From an uncultured Anaerolineales bacterium (GTDB lineage: Bacteria; Chloroflexota; Anaerolineae; Anaerolineales; Villigracilaceae): DNA of 43,022 bases. Positions 9,162-42,008 of the stretch are shown here, piece after piece. Under the pieces are notes generated by a model that was not told the DNA's origin, made no database searches, and saw only the letters and a list, made by a program, of their open reading frames with translations. Both the position numbers and the translations under genes were made by a program. The stretch lies in the NCBI GenBank assembly GCA_949319575.1, contig CASGHD010000153.1, positions 1 to 43,022 on the forward strand, in the 5' to 3' direction. Within the stretch, counting starts at the first letter, position 1, and each line of letters starts with the position of its first letter.

Positions 9162-9340
9162 TACCGTTTTTAACGGGAAGCCCTTTTCAAACACAAAGGC
9201 TTGCATTGACGGTTCGTCTTTCGCTCACCGTGTCGAAAAGACACGACGGTCACAAAGGAAAAACCCAAGGAATGTAGGCTTATTTTCCCTTTGTGTACTT
9301 TGTGTCCATCGTGGTGAGGCTCTTTCCCGTTAAGTACGGA
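9162..9340. repeat. Family B palindromic element, copy 1
   Basis: Inverted ends: ACCGTTTTTAACGGGAA at 9163-9179 and TTCCCGTTAAGTACGG at 9324-9339. The inner arms also pair (ACACAAAGGC/TTTGTGT; CGACGGTCACAAAGG/CTTTGTGTCC). A second copy lies at 36708-36874 and a fragment at about 37389-37447. It contains no gene. Confidence 0.75.
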
Positions 9341-9383
9341 AGACCCCCAATGATAACTGGTCGAACTTTCAAGCCTTTGAGAG

Positions 9384-21980: not shown

Positions 21981-22007
21981 AAATAATTTCTCCGATGATT
22001 CCTATTG

Positions 22008-22079
22008 AACCGCGAAGCGCGCTAAGAACGCTAAGAAAACCTTTTATAAAACCTATGCGTTCTTCGCGCCTTAGCGGTT
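22008..22079. repeat. Family D palindromic element, intergenic copy
   Basis: AACCGCGAAGCGCGCTAAGAA (left, from 22008) pairs with TTCTTCGCGCCTTAGCGGTT (right, to 22079). It sits between two permease genes, 6 bases from the upstream gene's stop codon. The same element occurs at 36898-36960 and, inside a gene, at 39261-39336 and 40946-41025. Confidence 0.8.
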
Positions 22080-22085
22080 AATAAA

Positions 22086-36707: not shown

Positions 36708-36874
36708 TAACGTTTTTAACGGGAGTCCATTTTTCAAACACAAAGGCTTGCATTCAGCTTGTCGAAACGACACGACGGTCACAAAGGAAAAACCCATGAA
36801 CACAAGGCTCTTTTCCCTTCTTTGCGTACTTTGTGTCCTTCGTGGCGAGGCTCGTTCCCGTTAATTACGGGAGA
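36708..36874. repeat. Family B palindromic element, copy 2
   Basis: Nearly the same as 9162-9340: the TTTTTAACGGGA left end, AACACAAAGGCTTGCATT, GACACGACGGTCACAAAGG, then TTTGTGTCC and the TTCCCGTTAATTACGG right end. It lacks a central piece found in copy 1 (GACGGTTCGTCTTTCGCTC). That piece is present in the fragment at 37389-37447. Confidence 0.8.
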
Positions 36875-36897
36875 CCCGTTTTTATCACGAAGAAATT

Positions 36898-36960
36898 AAC
36901 CGCGAAGAGCGCAAAGGCTTTTACAAGCCTTTCTTGGCGCTCTTCGCAGGCTTAGCAGTT
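36898..36960. repeat. Family D palindromic element, upstream of the epimerase gene
   Basis: AACCGCGAAGAGCGCAAAGGC (36898-36918) pairs with GCGCTCTTCGCAGGCTTAGCAGTT, ending near 36960. The inner stem AAAGGCTTTTACAAGCCTTT is perfect apart from its loop. It ends 22 bases before the epimerase ATG. Confidence 0.75.
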
Positions 36961-36981
36961 CAATATTTTTTGGAGACCCTC

Positions 36982-37388: not shown

Positions 37389-37447
37389 CACCGCAAAGGC
37401 TTACGCTGACGGTTCGTCTTTCGCTCACCACGCCGAAGTGACACAAA
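37389..37447. repeat. Family B fragment
   Basis: CGCAAAGGCTTACGCTGACGG and GTTCGTCTTTCGCTCACC match the left-central part of the element at 9162-9340. It has no right half and lies 3 bases after the epimerase stop codon. Confidence 0.65.
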
Positions 37448-37510: not shown

Positions 37511-38422
37511 ATGACACACTGGCAAAACTACCTCAAACCCAAGACCCTCGACGAAGCCATGGACGCGTTCGCCAACGCGCCGCGTCCCATCATTCCCATC
37601 GCGGGCGGCACCGATCTTCTCCTCGATCTCGAACAAGGCAGGCATTCACCCGTCCAAACTTTATTGGATGTGACTTCCATACGCGAACTGACTCTCCTCG
37701 AACAACGCGGGGATGAACTCTTCATCGGCGCCGCCATTCCCGTCAACCGCGTCGCGCTCGACCCTCTACCTGTTCGCCATGCGGAGGCTTTGACTGAAGC
37801 CTGCGACCTGATCGCCGGTCCGCAAGTCCGCAACGTGGCGACTCTCGGAGGCAACGTCGCCCACGCCCTCCCCGCCGCCGACGGGACGATTGCCCTGCTC
37901 GCGTTGGATGCCCAAGCGGAGATCATCGCGCTGAGCGGAGCGACGAGTGATAACGAGGAGCGCAGACGAAGCGGCGTTGCAAGAAAAATCCCCTTCAAAG
38001 ATTTATTCCTCGGTCCCGGCAAATCCTCTCTCAAACACGGCGAGGAACTCATCGTCGGCTTCTACTTGCCACTTTCCACTTCCCATCAAGCCTCTTGCTT
38101 CAAACGGATCATGCGTCCGCAAGGCGTCGCGCTTCCCATCTTGAACTGCGCCGTCTGGCTCGAACGTGAGAACAATACAATCAAAGACATCCGCATTGCC
38201 GTCGGTCCCAGCGGCGGGACTCCCTTCCGCGCCACGCAAGCCGAAGATACTTTGCGCGGCAAATCTTTGAGTATCAAGTTGATTGAGTCTGCGACTGAAG
38301 CATTGCTCGCCCAAACCCAATTCCGCACCTCGGCTCGCCGCGCCAGCGCGGACTATCGTCAACACATTGTCAGCGGGTTGTTCGAGGATACGCTTGAGTC
38401 TGCGTGGGAAAGAGCGGGCTAA
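37511..38422 (+). CDS. Xanthine dehydrogenase-type FAD-binding subunit
   Basis: 303 residues of the CoxM/XdhB/HcrB family, which passes electrons from the 2Fe-2S centres to an acceptor through FAD. The N-terminal FAD site is IPIAGGTDLLLDLEQG (about 34-49). The second site RNVATLGGNVAHALPAADG (about 106-124) carries the conserved TxGGNxxxxxPxxD pattern. The C-terminal CO_deh_flav_C part runs from about 190 (FKRIMRPQGVALPILNCAVWLE) to the end. The start at 37511 (THWQNYLKPKTLDEAM) fits the family; there is no clear binding site, and the upstream extension is repeat DNA. Its stop codon (38420-38422) overlaps family F copy 1. Confidence 0.92.
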   Translation: MTHWQNYLKPKTLDEAMDAFANAPRPIIPIAGGTDLLLDLEQGRHSPVQTLLDVTSIRELTLLEQRGDELFIGAAIPVNRVALDPLPVRHAEALTEACDLIAGPQVRNVATLGGNVAHALPAADGTIALLALDAQAEIIALSGATSDNEERRRSGVARKIPFKDLFLGPGKSSLKHGEELIVGFYLPLSTSHQASCFKRIMRPQGVALPILNCAVWLERENNTIKDIRIAVGPSGGTPFRATQAEDTLRGKSLSIKLIESATEALLAQTQFRTSARRASADYRQHIVSGLFEDTLESAWERAG

Positions 38423-38487
38423 CCACTGAGACACGGAGACACTGAGATTTAAAAAATTATTCTCTGTGTTTCAGTGTCTCCGTGGTT
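38421..38487. repeat. Family F palindromic element, left of the GxxExxY gene
   Basis: AACCACTGAGACACGGAGACA (38421-38441) pairs with GTGTCTCCGTGGTT ending at 38487, with AGTGTC and an AT-rich centre between. It is nearly identical to 38931-38992 and shares two bases with the stop codon of the FAD subunit. Confidence 0.85.
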
Positions 38488-38930: not shown

Positions 38931-38992
38931 AACCACTGAGACACGAAGACACAGAGATTTTAAAAACTCCGTAACTCAGTGTCTCCGTGGTT
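38931..38992. repeat. Family F palindromic element, right of the GxxExxY gene
   Basis: AACCACTGAGACACGAAGACA (38931-38951) pairs with CAGTGTCTCCGTGGTT ending near 38992. It begins 7 bases after the GxxExxY stop codon and ends 19 bases before the next ATG. It has the same orientation and sequence as 38421-38487 except in the centre. Confidence 0.85.
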
Positions 38993-39011: not shown

Positions 39012-42008
39012 ATGAACAATCAAATCTCCCTTACCGTCAACGACATCCAGCATACCCTCGAAGCCAAGCCGAATGAAACGCTATCGGATTTGCTCCGTTA
39101 TCGCCTGCGCCTCACAGGGACAAAGATCGGCTGTGATGAAGCCGAGTGCGGCGCGTGCACCGTCCTTGTGGATGGCGAGCCTGTGGTCTCGTGCATCTAT
39201 CCCGCCGAGCGGGCGGATGGGAAGACGGTGGTGACGATTGAAGGGCTGGCGGGAGAATTTACCGCTAAGAGCGCAAAGAACGCGAAGAAAGACAAAAGAG
39301 GAAAGAATCTTAGCGACCTTGGCGAGCTTAGCGGTTCAAACGCTCTTCACCCTCTCCAACAAGCCTTTGTGGAGCATGGCGCGGTGCAGTGCGGATTTTG
39401 CATCCCCGGGCAGATCATGACGGCGTACGCGTTGCTCGAGCGGAATCCGAACCCGACGAGGGATGAGGTGCGGTTTGCGTTGAAGGATACACTCTGTCGT
39501 TGCGCGGGGTATCCAGCGATTGAGAATTCGATCCTCGCCGCGGCGGAATCTTTGCGGACAGGGGAACCTGTTAGGAAGCCGAATGTCCCTGATTCGATTC
39601 ATGTCCATAAATCAGTTGGGCATACTCACCTGCGACCCGATGGAATCGAGAAGGTCAATGGAAAAGCCATTTACACCGATGACCTTGTGTTCGATGGCAT
39701 GTTGTATGCCAAAGTAAAACGCGCGATGATTCCACACGGGTTCTTGACGAAACTTGATATTTCAAAAGCGAAAGCATTGAAAGGCGTTGCCGCGGTGTTA
39801 ACCGCCGAAGATATTCCCGCCGAACGCAATCATGGACTCATTATCTATGACTGGCCCGTGATGGTGGGAGTTGGGGAACGCGCCCGCTATGTGGGGGATG
39901 CGATCGCAATCGTCGCGGCAGAAACGGCTGAGATTGCGAGTCAGGCTGAACGTCTGATCGAAGCGGAGTTCGACCTCCAGCCTGTGATCACGAATCCCGT
40001 GATGGCGCGCGAGGAGGGAGTCCCGCAGATCCATGAAAAGGGAAATTTACTTAAGCACATCAAAGTCCGCAAAGGGGACATGGAAAAAGGATTCGCCGAG
40101 TCGGATGTGATCCTTGAACATACTTTTCATACGCCGACGTATGACCACGCGTTCATCGAACCCGAATGTAGTATCGCGGTTCCAGTAAAACCTGACAGGT
40201 CTCCTGAAGACCTGTCAGGTTTCAGACTTGAAATTTATTGCGGCTCGCAAATTCCATATCAGGACAGAACGCAAGTGGCGCGCGTGATGGGCTGGGATGA
40301 ATCGCGCGTGCGCGTGGTTGGGCAGTTGATGGGTGGCGGCTTCGGCGGTAAGGAAGATGTGATGGGGCAGATCCATGTGGCGATGCTGGCGAATGTCACG
40401 CAACGGCCCGTGAAATTATTGTTTGATCGTCATGAAAGTTTGCTTGTGCATCCCAAGCGCCACGCGACGCAAATCCGAATCAAGATCGGTGCGAAAAAAG
40501 ATGGACATATTATGGCATCCGAGTCTGAACTGTATGGCGACACGGGCGCGTACGCGTCGCTCGGCGAGAAGGTGATGACGCGCGCCACCACGCACTCGGC
40601 GGGTCCGTATAATGTGCCGAATGTGCGCGCCGATTGTTATGCCATGTACACCAACAATCCGCCCGCGGGCGCGTTTCGCGGATTTGGCGTCACGCAATCG
40701 GCGTTTGCAGTTGAATCAATGATGGACATGCTCGCCGAAAAATTAAATATCGAACCCGTTGAACTTCGTCGCATCAACGCCCTGCATGTCGGGAGCATCA
40801 CGAATACGGGACAGGAGTTGCGCGAGTCGGTGGGGCTGATGGAGTGCATTGATAAAGTTTCAAGCGCCATGTGTCAGGTTTCAGGTTTGTCGGAGAGTGA
40901 GTTGTTCAAGCCGCGTGTTGTTTCCGGCAGTGACGAAAAGAATTTAACCGCTAAGCACGCTAAGAGCGCAAAGAAGAAAGAGGAAAGAAGAAAGAATCTT
41001 AGCGGACTTCGCGGTCTTAGCGGTTCAAATCATCTCGTGAGAGCGTGGGGATTTGCGGCGGCATACAAAAACACGGGACTCGGCGGTGGCGCGCCCGATA
41101 TTTCCAACGCGGAAGTTGAGTTGTACGATGACGGCACATTCCAAGTGCGGAGTTCATCCGCTGAAATGGGGCAGGGCCTTGTCTCCGTGATGCAATTGAC
41201 TGTTGCCGAGGAGATGGCGGTTCAACCGAATCAAGTTCGTGTGTTGGTGATGGACACGGATTTGACTCCGAATGGCGGACCTACGACTGCCTCACGCCAA
41301 ACGTACGTCACTGGTAATGCTTCACGTTATGCGGCAAAGACTCTGCGCGATGCAATCACTGCGACTCTCGCTGAAAAATATGATGTGCGCCCTGAACAGA
41401 TTCGTTTTGAAAATGGAATCGTCCACGCCAATGGACATTCCATGACTTACGCCGAAGTCGCCAAAGAAATGAAGTCGCTGGGACAACATCCGCGCGCGCT
41501 GTACGAATACGAAGCGCCGAAGACGCAACCTCTCGGCACAGGCGGCGACATGCACTTCGCTTTCTCGTTTGGAGTGCAAGCCGCGGAAGTGGAAGTGAAC
41601 AAGTTGACTGGCGAAGTGAGCGTGCTGAGAGTCATCTCTGCCAACGATGTGGGCATGGCGGTCAATCCGCTTGGCTTGCAGGGACAAGTCGAAGGCGGCG
41701 TGATGATGGGGCTCGGCAACGCCCTCACCGAAGAATTCATCATGGATAACGGCAATGTGGTCACTGACCGTTTGGCGCGTTATCGCATCCCCGGTATTAT
41801 GCTCACGCCTGAGATCACGTCCATTATTGTTGAACATCCTACTGCGGAAGGTCCATACGGAGCGAAGGGAGTTGGCGAGATATGCAGTATCCCAACCACG
41901 CCCGCGATCACGAACGCCATTTACAATGCGGTGGGTGTGAGGATTGATAAGTTGCCGGTGGATCAGGAGATGATTGCAAGGGAGATTTGGGAGAGGGAAG
42001 AAAAATAG
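39012..42008 (+). CDS. Xanthine dehydrogenase-type 2Fe-2S/molybdopterin subunit with repeat-derived insertions
   Basis: 998 residues, a fusion of the small Fe-S subunit and the Mo subunit. Cysteines for the plant-type 2Fe-2S cluster are 41, 46, 49 and 61; those for the second cluster are 127, 130, 162 and 164. The Mo part (about 195-998) carries QLMGGGFGGKED, PPAGAFRGFGVTQ and, near the C-terminus, KGVGEICSIPTTPAI with the probable catalytic base Glu956. Substrate is uncertain: a purine or another N-heterocycle. Three in-frame palindromes add peptides at about 83-109, 393-404 and 645-671, all outside the cluster and active-site motifs, so the enzyme may remain active. GAGGTGA sets the start at 39012. 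Confidence 0.93.
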   Translation: MNNQISLTVNDIQHTLEAKPNETLSDLLRYRLRLTGTKIGCDEAECGACTVLVDGEPVVSCIYPAERADGKTVVTIEGLAGEFTAKSAKNAKKDKRGKNLSDLGELSGSNALHPLQQAFVEHGAVQCGFCIPGQIMTAYALLERNPNPTRDEVRFALKDTLCRCAGYPAIENSILAAAESLRTGEPVRKPNVPDSIHVHKSVGHTHLRPDGIEKVNGKAIYTDDLVFDGMLYAKVKRAMIPHGFLTKLDISKAKALKGVAAVLTAEDIPAERNHGLIIYDWPVMVGVGERARYVGDAIAIVAAETAEIASQAERLIEAEFDLQPVITNPVMAREEGVPQIHEKGNLLKHIKVRKGDMEKGFAESDVILEHTFHTPTYDHAFIEPECSIAVPVKPDRSPEDLSGFRLEIYCGSQIPYQDRTQVARVMGWDESRVRVVGQLMGGGFGGKEDVMGQIHVAMLANVTQRPVKLLFDRHESLLVHPKRHATQIRIKIGAKKDGHIMASESELYGDTGAYASLGEKVMTRATTHSAGPYNVPNVRADCYAMYTNNPPAGAFRGFGVTQSAFAVESMMDMLAEKLNIEPVELRRINALHVGSITNTGQELRESVGLMECIDKVSSAMCQVSGLSESELFKPRVVSGSDEKNLTAKHAKSAKKKEERRKNLSGLRGLSGSNHLVRAWGFAAAYKNTGLGGGAPDISNAEVELYDDGTFQVRSSSAEMGQGLVSVMQLTVAEEMAVQPNQVRVLVMDTDLTPNGGPTTASRQTYVTGNASRYAAKTLRDAITATLAEKYDVRPEQIRFENGIVHANGHSMTYAEVAKEMKSLGQHPRALYEYEAPKTQPLGTGGDMHFAFSFGVQAAEVEVNKLTGEVSVLRVISANDVGMAVNPLGLQGQVEGGVMMGLGNALTEEFIMDNGNVVTDRLARYRIPGIMLTPEITSIIVEHPTAEGPYGAKGVGEICSIPTTPAITNAIYNAVGVRIDKLPVDQEMIAREIWEREEK
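39261..39336. repeat. Family D palindromic element inside the Fe-S/Mo subunit gene, copy 1
   Basis: ACCGCTAAGAGCGCAAAGAA on the left and CTTGGCGAGCTTAGCGGTT on the right are inverted copies. It is open in the gene's frame and encodes TAKSAKNAKKDKRGKN followed by LSDLGELSGSN, placed between TIEGLAG and ALHPLQQAF, where relatives have only a few residues. Confidence 0.9.
40188..40222. repeat. Family E hairpin inside the Fe-S/Mo subunit gene
   Basis: AAACCTGACAGGTCT (40188-40202), loop CCTGA, and AGACCTGTCAGGTTT (40208-40222): a perfect 15-bp stem with a 5-base loop, the same dimensions as the hairpin at 6437-6471. It is read in frame as KPDRSPEDLSGF between SIAVPV and RLEIYCG. Confidence 0.9.
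40946..41025. repeat. Family D palindromic element inside the Fe-S/Mo subunit gene, copy 2
   Basis: AACCGCTAAGCACGCTAAGAG (left) pairs with CGCGGTCTTAGCGGTT (right). In frame it encodes TAKHAKSAKKKEERRKN and then LSGLRGLSGSN, nearly the same peptide as the first copy, placed before LVRAWGFAAAYKNTGLGGG. Confidence 0.9.

Follow-up and report, generated by a model that had tools for sequence, protein, structure and literature searches.

How can an enzyme gene hold two copies of a palindrome that is also scattered between genes and still be read from end to end? This question is raised by a 43,022-nucleotide stretch of DNA (hereafter the window) from an uncultured Anaerolineales bacterium of the Villigracilaceae (assembly GCA_949319575.1, contig CASGHD010000153.1), in which a xanthine dehydrogenase-like (XDH-like) gene contains two copies of a dispersed palindrome that we call family A. 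An earlier note, made from the letters alone, had described the two as sister insertions in loops of one enzyme. We put the probability at roughly three in four that family A consists of non-autonomous repeats, akin to miniature inverted-repeat transposable elements (MITEs) or repetitive extragenic palindromes (REPs), which would survive in genes only in frame, in tolerated loops and as a mild linker. The gene and the palindromes inside it are as follows.

39012..42008, + strand: fused 2Fe-2S and molybdopterin subunit gene of the xanthine dehydrogenase/aldehyde oxidoreductase superfamily, 998 amino acids (Pfam, NCBIfam, model match to 1sij)
39261..39336, + strand: family A palindrome, copy 1, translated in frame to TAKSAKNAKK...LSGS and absent from many orthologues
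40947..41025, + strand: family A palindrome, copy 2, translated in frame to TAKHAKSAKK...LSGS and absent from many orthologues
40188..40222, + strand: third palindrome, family D (AAACCTGACAGGT...ACCTGTCAGGTTT), sequence AAACCTGACAGGTCTCCTGAAGACCTGTCAGGTTT, read in frame as KPDRSPEDLSGF, residues 393 to 404

The XDH-like protein had the Pfam domains Fer2, Fer2_2, Ald_Xan_dh_C, MoCoBD_1 and MoCoBD_2, and its best NCBIfam match was TIGR03311 (740 bits, under the cut-off of 830 for that family). Both family A copies were found where the earlier note had placed them, and both were open in the frame of the gene: copy 1 translates as FTAKSAKNAKKDKRGKNLSDLGELSGSN (residues ~83 to 110) and copy 2 as LTAKHAKSAKKKEERRKNLSGLRGLSGSN (residues ~645 to 673), with 86% identity between their right-hand 57 nt. 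The third palindrome, absent from that note, was unrelated to family A; the family D core pattern occurred at 3 places in the genome of this bacterium (G000), and orthologues had at this site a short turn, such as LPDG, or other palindromes.

In solved relatives, insert 1 corresponds to the junction of the two FeS domains and insert 2 to the junction of the two molybdopterin-binding halves, the point where nicotinate dehydrogenase splits into two chains. The AlphaFold model of the protein had a mean predicted local distance difference test (pLDDT) score of 79 and a fold matching 1sij. Its longest two low-confidence stretches were residues 82 to 110 and 641 to 671, although low pLDDT at the inserts may also reflect a thin alignment there, and other weak stretches occurred in the core (e.g., 513 to 523 and 907 to 925); the third palindrome was modeled as a turn between strands 385 to 392 and 405 to 410. 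Alignment, solved relatives and the low-confidence stretches of the model thus support the predicted placement of the inserts in loops.

Palindrome turnover at three loops of the XDH-like protein

The comparison comprised 69 rows, namely, the query and 68 orthologues from Chloroflexota assemblies, mostly labeled Anaerolineales, Anaerolineae or simply Chloroflexi. Short loops were common among the orthologues (EGLAQRVHEEMKL, CSIGVPLPDGRMEI and FxPxVDPANPNLVRAWG), and those of the isolate Pelolinea submarina (L186) were similar. The earlier note had reasoned that residues conserved at these places in all relatives would mark the stretches as native protein; many orthologues had short loops, and on this ground the native-protein reading of the inserts was rejected. 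Extra stretches longer than 8 amino acids were confined to the three loops. Furthermore, stems with a score of at least 12 were present at loops 1, 2 and 3 in 9, 11 and 9 of the 69 rows (29 stems in ~118 of 998 residues), compared with 10 stems in the rest of the XDH rows and 2 in 20 codon-shuffled genes; two of the 29 (L179 and L183) lay in rows scored as insert-free. The stems of equal score elsewhere and in shuffled genes, together with the variability of the loops even where no palindrome is present, could be taken to mean that the palindromes are native loop sequence or chance stems. However, the stems are concentrated in the loops, family A is dispersed, and relatives have short loops, so that this explanation is very unlikely and we give it next to no credence.

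Six palindrome families (A to F, letters assigned by eye) were found at the three loops across the 69 rows. Other rows had palindromes unrelated to family A, of the CCCTCTCCC type (SPSPSGRG) and the CCCCCCTC type (PLRLPPNS) and with AACCTGACAGGT (KPDRS), and further palindromes contained GAGGTGACAGTCAC (encoding EVTVTSEVTVTS) or ended in STRPSAQ. With parsimony on a tree from which the loop columns had been left out, a minimum of 10, 9 and 10 family changes was needed at loops 1, 2 and 3, where 56, 68 and 65 rows were scored (13, 1 and 4 of the 69 being left out); the figure for loop 2 applies with both family A variants merged and becomes 12 if they are kept separate. Scoring of presence only gave 9, 7 and 9 changes. 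All of these counts are those obtained on the full quick tree, where support was weak for 28 of the 66 inner branches. The approximately unbiased (AU) test rejected a single clade for family A at loop 1 (P value = 2.9 × 10−13), for family D at loop 3 (P value = 2.5 × 10−6) and for family A plus its variant at loop 2 (P value = 1.9 × 10−4). Parsimony is blind to gain versus loss, and scattered presence could stem from losses; the presence of different families at one loop cannot.

Some rows had features of their own. The XDH match ran ~800 bp past the open frame in L173, L198 and L204, perhaps into a partial duplicate. In L201, the orthologue was split, outside the three loops, into two frames that overlap, as a frameshift or an assembly error would give, and in L016 (G007:C110), the match contained one TGA, with the long frame starting after the N-terminal residues and away from the loops.

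Reuse of loops in other proteins

Two other hosts, with S4 plus FtsJ domains and with Mur ligase domains according to Pfam, are proteins that we take to be TlyA and MurE, respectively. In 25 of 47 loci, the TlyA-like loop before ALIKPQF exceeded each of 100 shuffles as a palindrome, which corresponds to 23 of 44 genomes once duplicates were removed (the set held duplicate loci for three genomes, and its family-level loci were those of the best 30 of 44 matching genomes). A neighboring control stretch at the same loci was never significantly palindromic. By eye, the palindromes of this loop belonged to several unrelated sequence families. The pattern CTTTCNTCTTTC...GAAAGANGAAAG, taken from this loop, was found in all six genomes searched, with 3 to 18 matches per strand versus 0 to 2 for its reversed control (overlapping matches counted). 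At the MurE-like loop, our genome had family A, two relatives had a sister palindrome with an 8-nt unit, one had a nested CCCTCTCCC-like insert, and others had short loops. Significant palindromes were present in 3 of 17 MurE-like loops (0 of 60 shuffles); the nested case (L387) looked like a palindrome by eye and was not significant (14 of 60 shuffles).

These loops bear on an explanation in which the hairpin and not the peptide is what is retained: either new elements enter and replace existing hairpins, or an mRNA hairpin is selected at a domain boundary, e.g., because it slows the ribosome during domain folding, and families turn over as the hairpin stays. Housekeeping genes, here the TlyA-like, XDH-like and MurE-like genes, might then have hairpin sockets, i.e., fixed places where a hairpin is held for long periods while its sequence and peptide are repeatedly replaced by unrelated palindromes, an idea that we hold to be about as doubtful as the explanation itself. 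If true, the sockets would arise by the targeting of existing hairpins or by the usefulness of a hairpin at a domain boundary. The significant TlyA-like loops in 23 of 44 genomes (0 of 100 shuffles), with their unrelated families and controls without any, speak for hairpin retention, as do the nested inserts in L093, L094, L144, L149, L156, L330, L347, L351 and L387 and the position of XDH inserts 1 and 2 at domain boundaries. However, XDH loop 1 had no palindrome in 39 of the 56 scored rows, 21 of 44 TlyA-like loops were not significant, and only 3 of 17 MurE-like loops were. Moreover, tolerance alone may be enough, and occupancy is inflated since the loops were chosen for having an insert in our own genome. 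We consider hairpin retention a possible but unlikely account of the reuse.

Family A in gene gaps and in genes

The window also contains family A copies between genes and two related palindromes, none with an assigned strand.

22007..22083: family A copy in the gap between two genes on the minus strand, adjoining a stop codon
36897..36964: degenerate family A copy between genes
38422..38486: sister palindrome built of an 8-nt unit (ACCACTGAGACACGGAGACACTGAG...)
38932..38991: second sister palindrome with an 8-nt unit, directly upstream of the XDH-like gene

In two relatives (L383 and L384), the MurE-like loop contained an in-frame repeat that looked similar to the sister palindrome at 38422..38486. 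Family A itself is a dispersed, imperfect palindrome of ~60 to 80 bp, longer where another segment is nested inside. Its arms are made of the 9-nt units NNCGCNAAG and CTTNGCGNN, and because 9 nt equal three codons, each unit reads x-Ala-Lys in one frame of one arm and Leu-x-x in the other arm. An alignment of ten copies gave a 76-position model with 20 base pairs. Covariance model R1, which the ten sequences behind it match by construction, joined the two in-gene copies to the intergenic copies at 22007..22083 and 36897..36964, a kinship that the earlier note had claimed. At an E value of ≤1, R1 gave at least 147 matches in our genome, merged by hand to at least 80 places; the best 150 of 3,468 candidates were scored, and the count is a lower bound. 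The 30-nt consensus with ≤3 mismatches occurred at 7 places in this genome and its reversed control at 0. The six weakest R1 places formed one tandem cluster (C50, E values of 5 × 10−4 to 3 × 10−3); within C50:4701-5148 (L087), short, degenerate family A-like units stood in tandem with a spacing of ~62 nt. In the congeners G017 and G013, we found 71 and 69 family A elements in the stretches fetched (three G013 places, in C182, C186 and C206, were left unfetched).

Most family A copies lay outside genes, many of them in narrow gaps between same-strand genes. Coding frames on the same strand flanked 30 of the 80 listed places in our genome, both within 40 nt of the element, and in 24 of these 30 gaps the upstream stop came 5 to 26 nt ahead of the element; in some other gap copies, the first TAA at the left end of the element was itself the stop of the upstream gene. 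At the remaining 6 of the 30 junctions, the upstream stop was at, inside or beyond the element. A Pfam check of five of these gave different families on the two sides in three (L052, L067 and L072) and no Pfam match on the downstream side in L068 and L078, where the gene might be broken; at the sixth (C31), the tail of an O-antigen-ligase-like protein passed through the element. Junctions of a like kind in G017 (8) and G013 (5) were judged on sequence only. In this check of limited extent, no broken gene was demonstrated in the three genomes.

Outer flanks like TTTGAGGGCGGACAG surrounded some copies (L224 to L228 in G017; L001, L002 and L005 in our genome), and five identical G017 copies may lie in a larger repeat because they have such flanks in common. 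A different dispersed repeat, containing GACGGTTCGTCTTTCGCTCACC, occurred in the window at 9194..9346, 36747..36877 and 37394..37444 (77 to 90% alike over 51 to 78 nt). An Rfam scan at the gathering score gave no family match to the palindromes; the sole match in the window was an S-adenosylmethionine (SAM) riboswitch (RF00162, 1379..1502, + strand, 78.7 bits).

Inside genes, we counted 20 of the 220 family A copies (8, 6 and 6 in G000, G017 and G013), at ten distinct sites and all in frame. In our own genome the sites were in the XDH-like gene (two), heparinase-like, TlyA-like and MurE-like genes and genes for an HSDR/N6 methylase, an ABC ATPase and a gamma-glutamyltransferase; the remaining two of the ten were in a GAF/TPR protein and in a protein without a Pfam match. 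Gene-end copies were left out of this count (C31; C70, upstream of a molybdopterin oxidoreductase; and C224, upstream of an anthranilate-synthase-like protein).

The reading frame of these copies was strongly biased. Outside genes, copies with a length divisible by 3 offered 92 open strand readings in frame 0, 91 in frame 1 and 19 in frame 2, frame 1 often being an Arg-rich stretch plus a hydrophobic stretch. Inside genes, 9 of 10 sites were read in frame 0, as TAKxAKxAKK...LSGS or a close variant; at the tenth, the TlyA-like site, the left arm was read in another frame (SYRQAREDRK). All 9 in-gene sites with a length divisible by 3 used frame 0, against an expected share of 0.455 (binomial test, P value = 8 × 10−4, with sites listed by hand and open frames assumed equally likely at entry). 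This bias suggests that selection acts on the peptide and not on the frame alone. Length was divisible by 3 in 17 of 20 copies inside genes versus 67 of 189 outside, a comparison that is partly circular and was not used as proof (the frame and length counts exclude 11 of the 220 copies, whose ends were unclear). The earlier suggestion of selection for frame, or for low harm, fits 20 in-gene copies that are all in frame and the mild Lys/Ala reading at 9 of 10 sites.

The same bias, and the presence of the peptide at orthologous sites in several species, could also indicate a Lys-rich peptide with a selected function, e.g., as a linker or for contacting a partner or nucleic acid. We judge this improbable: elsewhere the same loop holds unrelated peptides (SPSPSGRG, PLRLPPNS and EVTVTSEVTVTS) or none, and the length varies, with the L192 row lacking the right arm. 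It is more improbable still that the palindromes are removed from the mRNA or the protein in a splicing-like manner, since both the retention of frame and the choice of frame argue for translation, and we found no point in its favor.

A model of the insert-derived peptide had matches in 14 of the 18 genomes of the genus. Among 13 long-frame matches fetched from relatives, the element was in the coding frame in 11 (all except L345 and L348), and EcoEI_R, RlmN and MetH proteins were added to the hosts. The heparinase-like, gamma-glutamyltransferase, N6 methylase and TlyA-like sites were common to several species, and the inserts are therefore probably old. Similar inserts at these orthologous sites are also what would be expected if loop alleles with inserts passed from species to species through recombination between homologous genes, in place of repeated insertion. 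However, vertical inheritance explains the common inserts equally well, close relatives have unrelated families at the same loop, and recombination moves alleles and does not create them; we thus rate this route as rather unlikely, a little below hairpin retention. Nested in-frame segments (PALSKAEVEK, DTSIKLSAS and similar) were found in family A copies of L093, L094, L144, L330, L347 and L351. A composite form with an inner segment in the right arm reading DTSIKLSAS, or nearly so, was present in four unrelated proteins, namely, XDH (L144), gamma-glutamyltransferase (L094), the protein of L330 and N6 methylase (L351), which is consistent with movement as a unit.

We favor the reading of family A as MITE/REP-like repeats tolerated in loops. 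Copies would enter genes and persist only if the net change kept the frame, if the site was a tolerated loop or domain linker, and if the element was read as a hydrophilic Lys/Ala stretch followed by a Ser/Gly/Leu linker. The fold of the enzyme would be preserved, as presumably would its activity, with 25 to 30 residues forming a floppy appendage, and most arrivals in genes would be purged. Because tolerated loops are few, they would be reused, and the same loops of related species hold other, unrelated families, sometimes nested. The data show that the repeats are dispersed, that they are read in frame with a bias to one frame, that relatives lack them and that families replace one another at the same loops. 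Mobility of the repeats, purifying selection as the cause and an unchanged function of the enzymes are what we infer from these patterns.

Several observations weigh against this reading. The native XDH loop residues (QRVHEEMK, LPDG and DPANPN) were gone wherever a palindrome was present, which looks like replacement and not clean insertion, and we saw no empty site that had a target duplication. Four of the 18 genomes of the genus had no match to the insert peptide model. Copies in genes were recognized by an open frame plus a codon score, so that "in frame" holds partly by construction and copies that disrupt the frame of a weakly scoring gene may have escaped notice. The identical copies of G017 and G013 have common flanks or are located at contig ends; they are therefore no proof of recent jumps and did not serve as evidence. 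The sequences come from metagenome assemblies. Finally, no family A copy lay within ~1.5 kb of the six Y1_Tnp loci of our genome (best E value, 0.29), Y1_Tnp being the only transposase domain searched.

Relation to known repeats

The earlier note had drawn a parallel with Rickettsia palindromic elements (RPEs). In the parts of the 2007 review by Delihas that treat them, RPEs are dispersed palindromes that lie in intergenic DNA and also, in frame, inside many unrelated protein genes, RPEs and other MITEs are described as fused in frame to genes, and the one host enzyme tested, guanylate kinase, stays active with a changed substrate affinity (PMC2229807). Family A likewise occupies both intergenic sites and, in frame, genes that are unrelated to one another, and the parallel holds at the level of how the elements work. 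RPEs measure 105 to 146 bp and are from Rickettsia, whereas family A measures ~60 to 80 bp, is made of 9-nt units and is from Chloroflexota, a comparison by description only. Unlike RPEs, several unrelated families occupy the same loops here.

A second resemblance is to the GTAG/CGTC REPs. The relevant sections of a 2013 paper (PMC3733652) place most of them close to 3' ends, in gaps that separate unidirectional or convergent genes, with ends that often supply a stop codon, put a share of them inside open reading frames (ORFs) of unrelated proteins, report that two Xanthomonas species have different REPs at about the same position in recB and list GTAG REPs in the Chloroflexi phylum. Family A agrees in its placement in gene gaps, in the stop codons supplied by its ends, in its copies within ORFs and in the use of one site by different repeats. 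It differs in that GTAG was near an end in 2 of 80 listed copies and CGTC in 1 of 80, in its internal period of 9 nt and in having no nearby gene for a REP-associated tyrosine transposase (RAYT). A RAYT-mobilized REP was rejected as a candidate, there being no REP tag and no RAYT linked to family A within ~1.5 kb of the six Y1_Tnp loci.

Bacterial MITEs such as ERIC and YPAL are also, in the passages of the review that mention them, short palindromes with frames fused in frame to host genes (PMC2229807). Family A has the terminal inverted repeats of a MITE, in the form of the palindromic arms ACCGCNAAG...CTTNGCGGT. In contrast to these MITEs, a search for Y1_Tnp gave no partner transposase, and no target duplication was recognized at the XDH loops, where the native residues look replaced. 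The small dispersed repeats of cyanobacteria are similarly short, dispersed and nested, a likeness of description. The term itself occurs in PMC2884548.

The occurrence of in-frame palindromes in many related genomes, with the same loops occupied by several families, amounts to a natural replicate experiment, in which one can ask which enzyme loops tolerate 10 to 40 extra residues, how fast inserts are gained and lost and whether hairpins attract hairpins. Our results also suggest that, where proteins of these bacteria contain TAKxAKxAKK, SPSPxGRG or KPDRS, such stretches can derive from repeats. In our searches of open-access papers, we found no report of family A or of multifamily loops in Anaerolineales. 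In-frame intragenic palindromes are, as a kind, already known because RPE and MITE fusions in frame and REPs within ORFs are reported in the portions of PMC2229807 and PMC3733652 cited above. What is unusual is that many families have used single loops again, and such reuse is more extensive here, at three XDH loops and at the TlyA-like and MurE-like loops, than in the GTAG/CGTC REPs.

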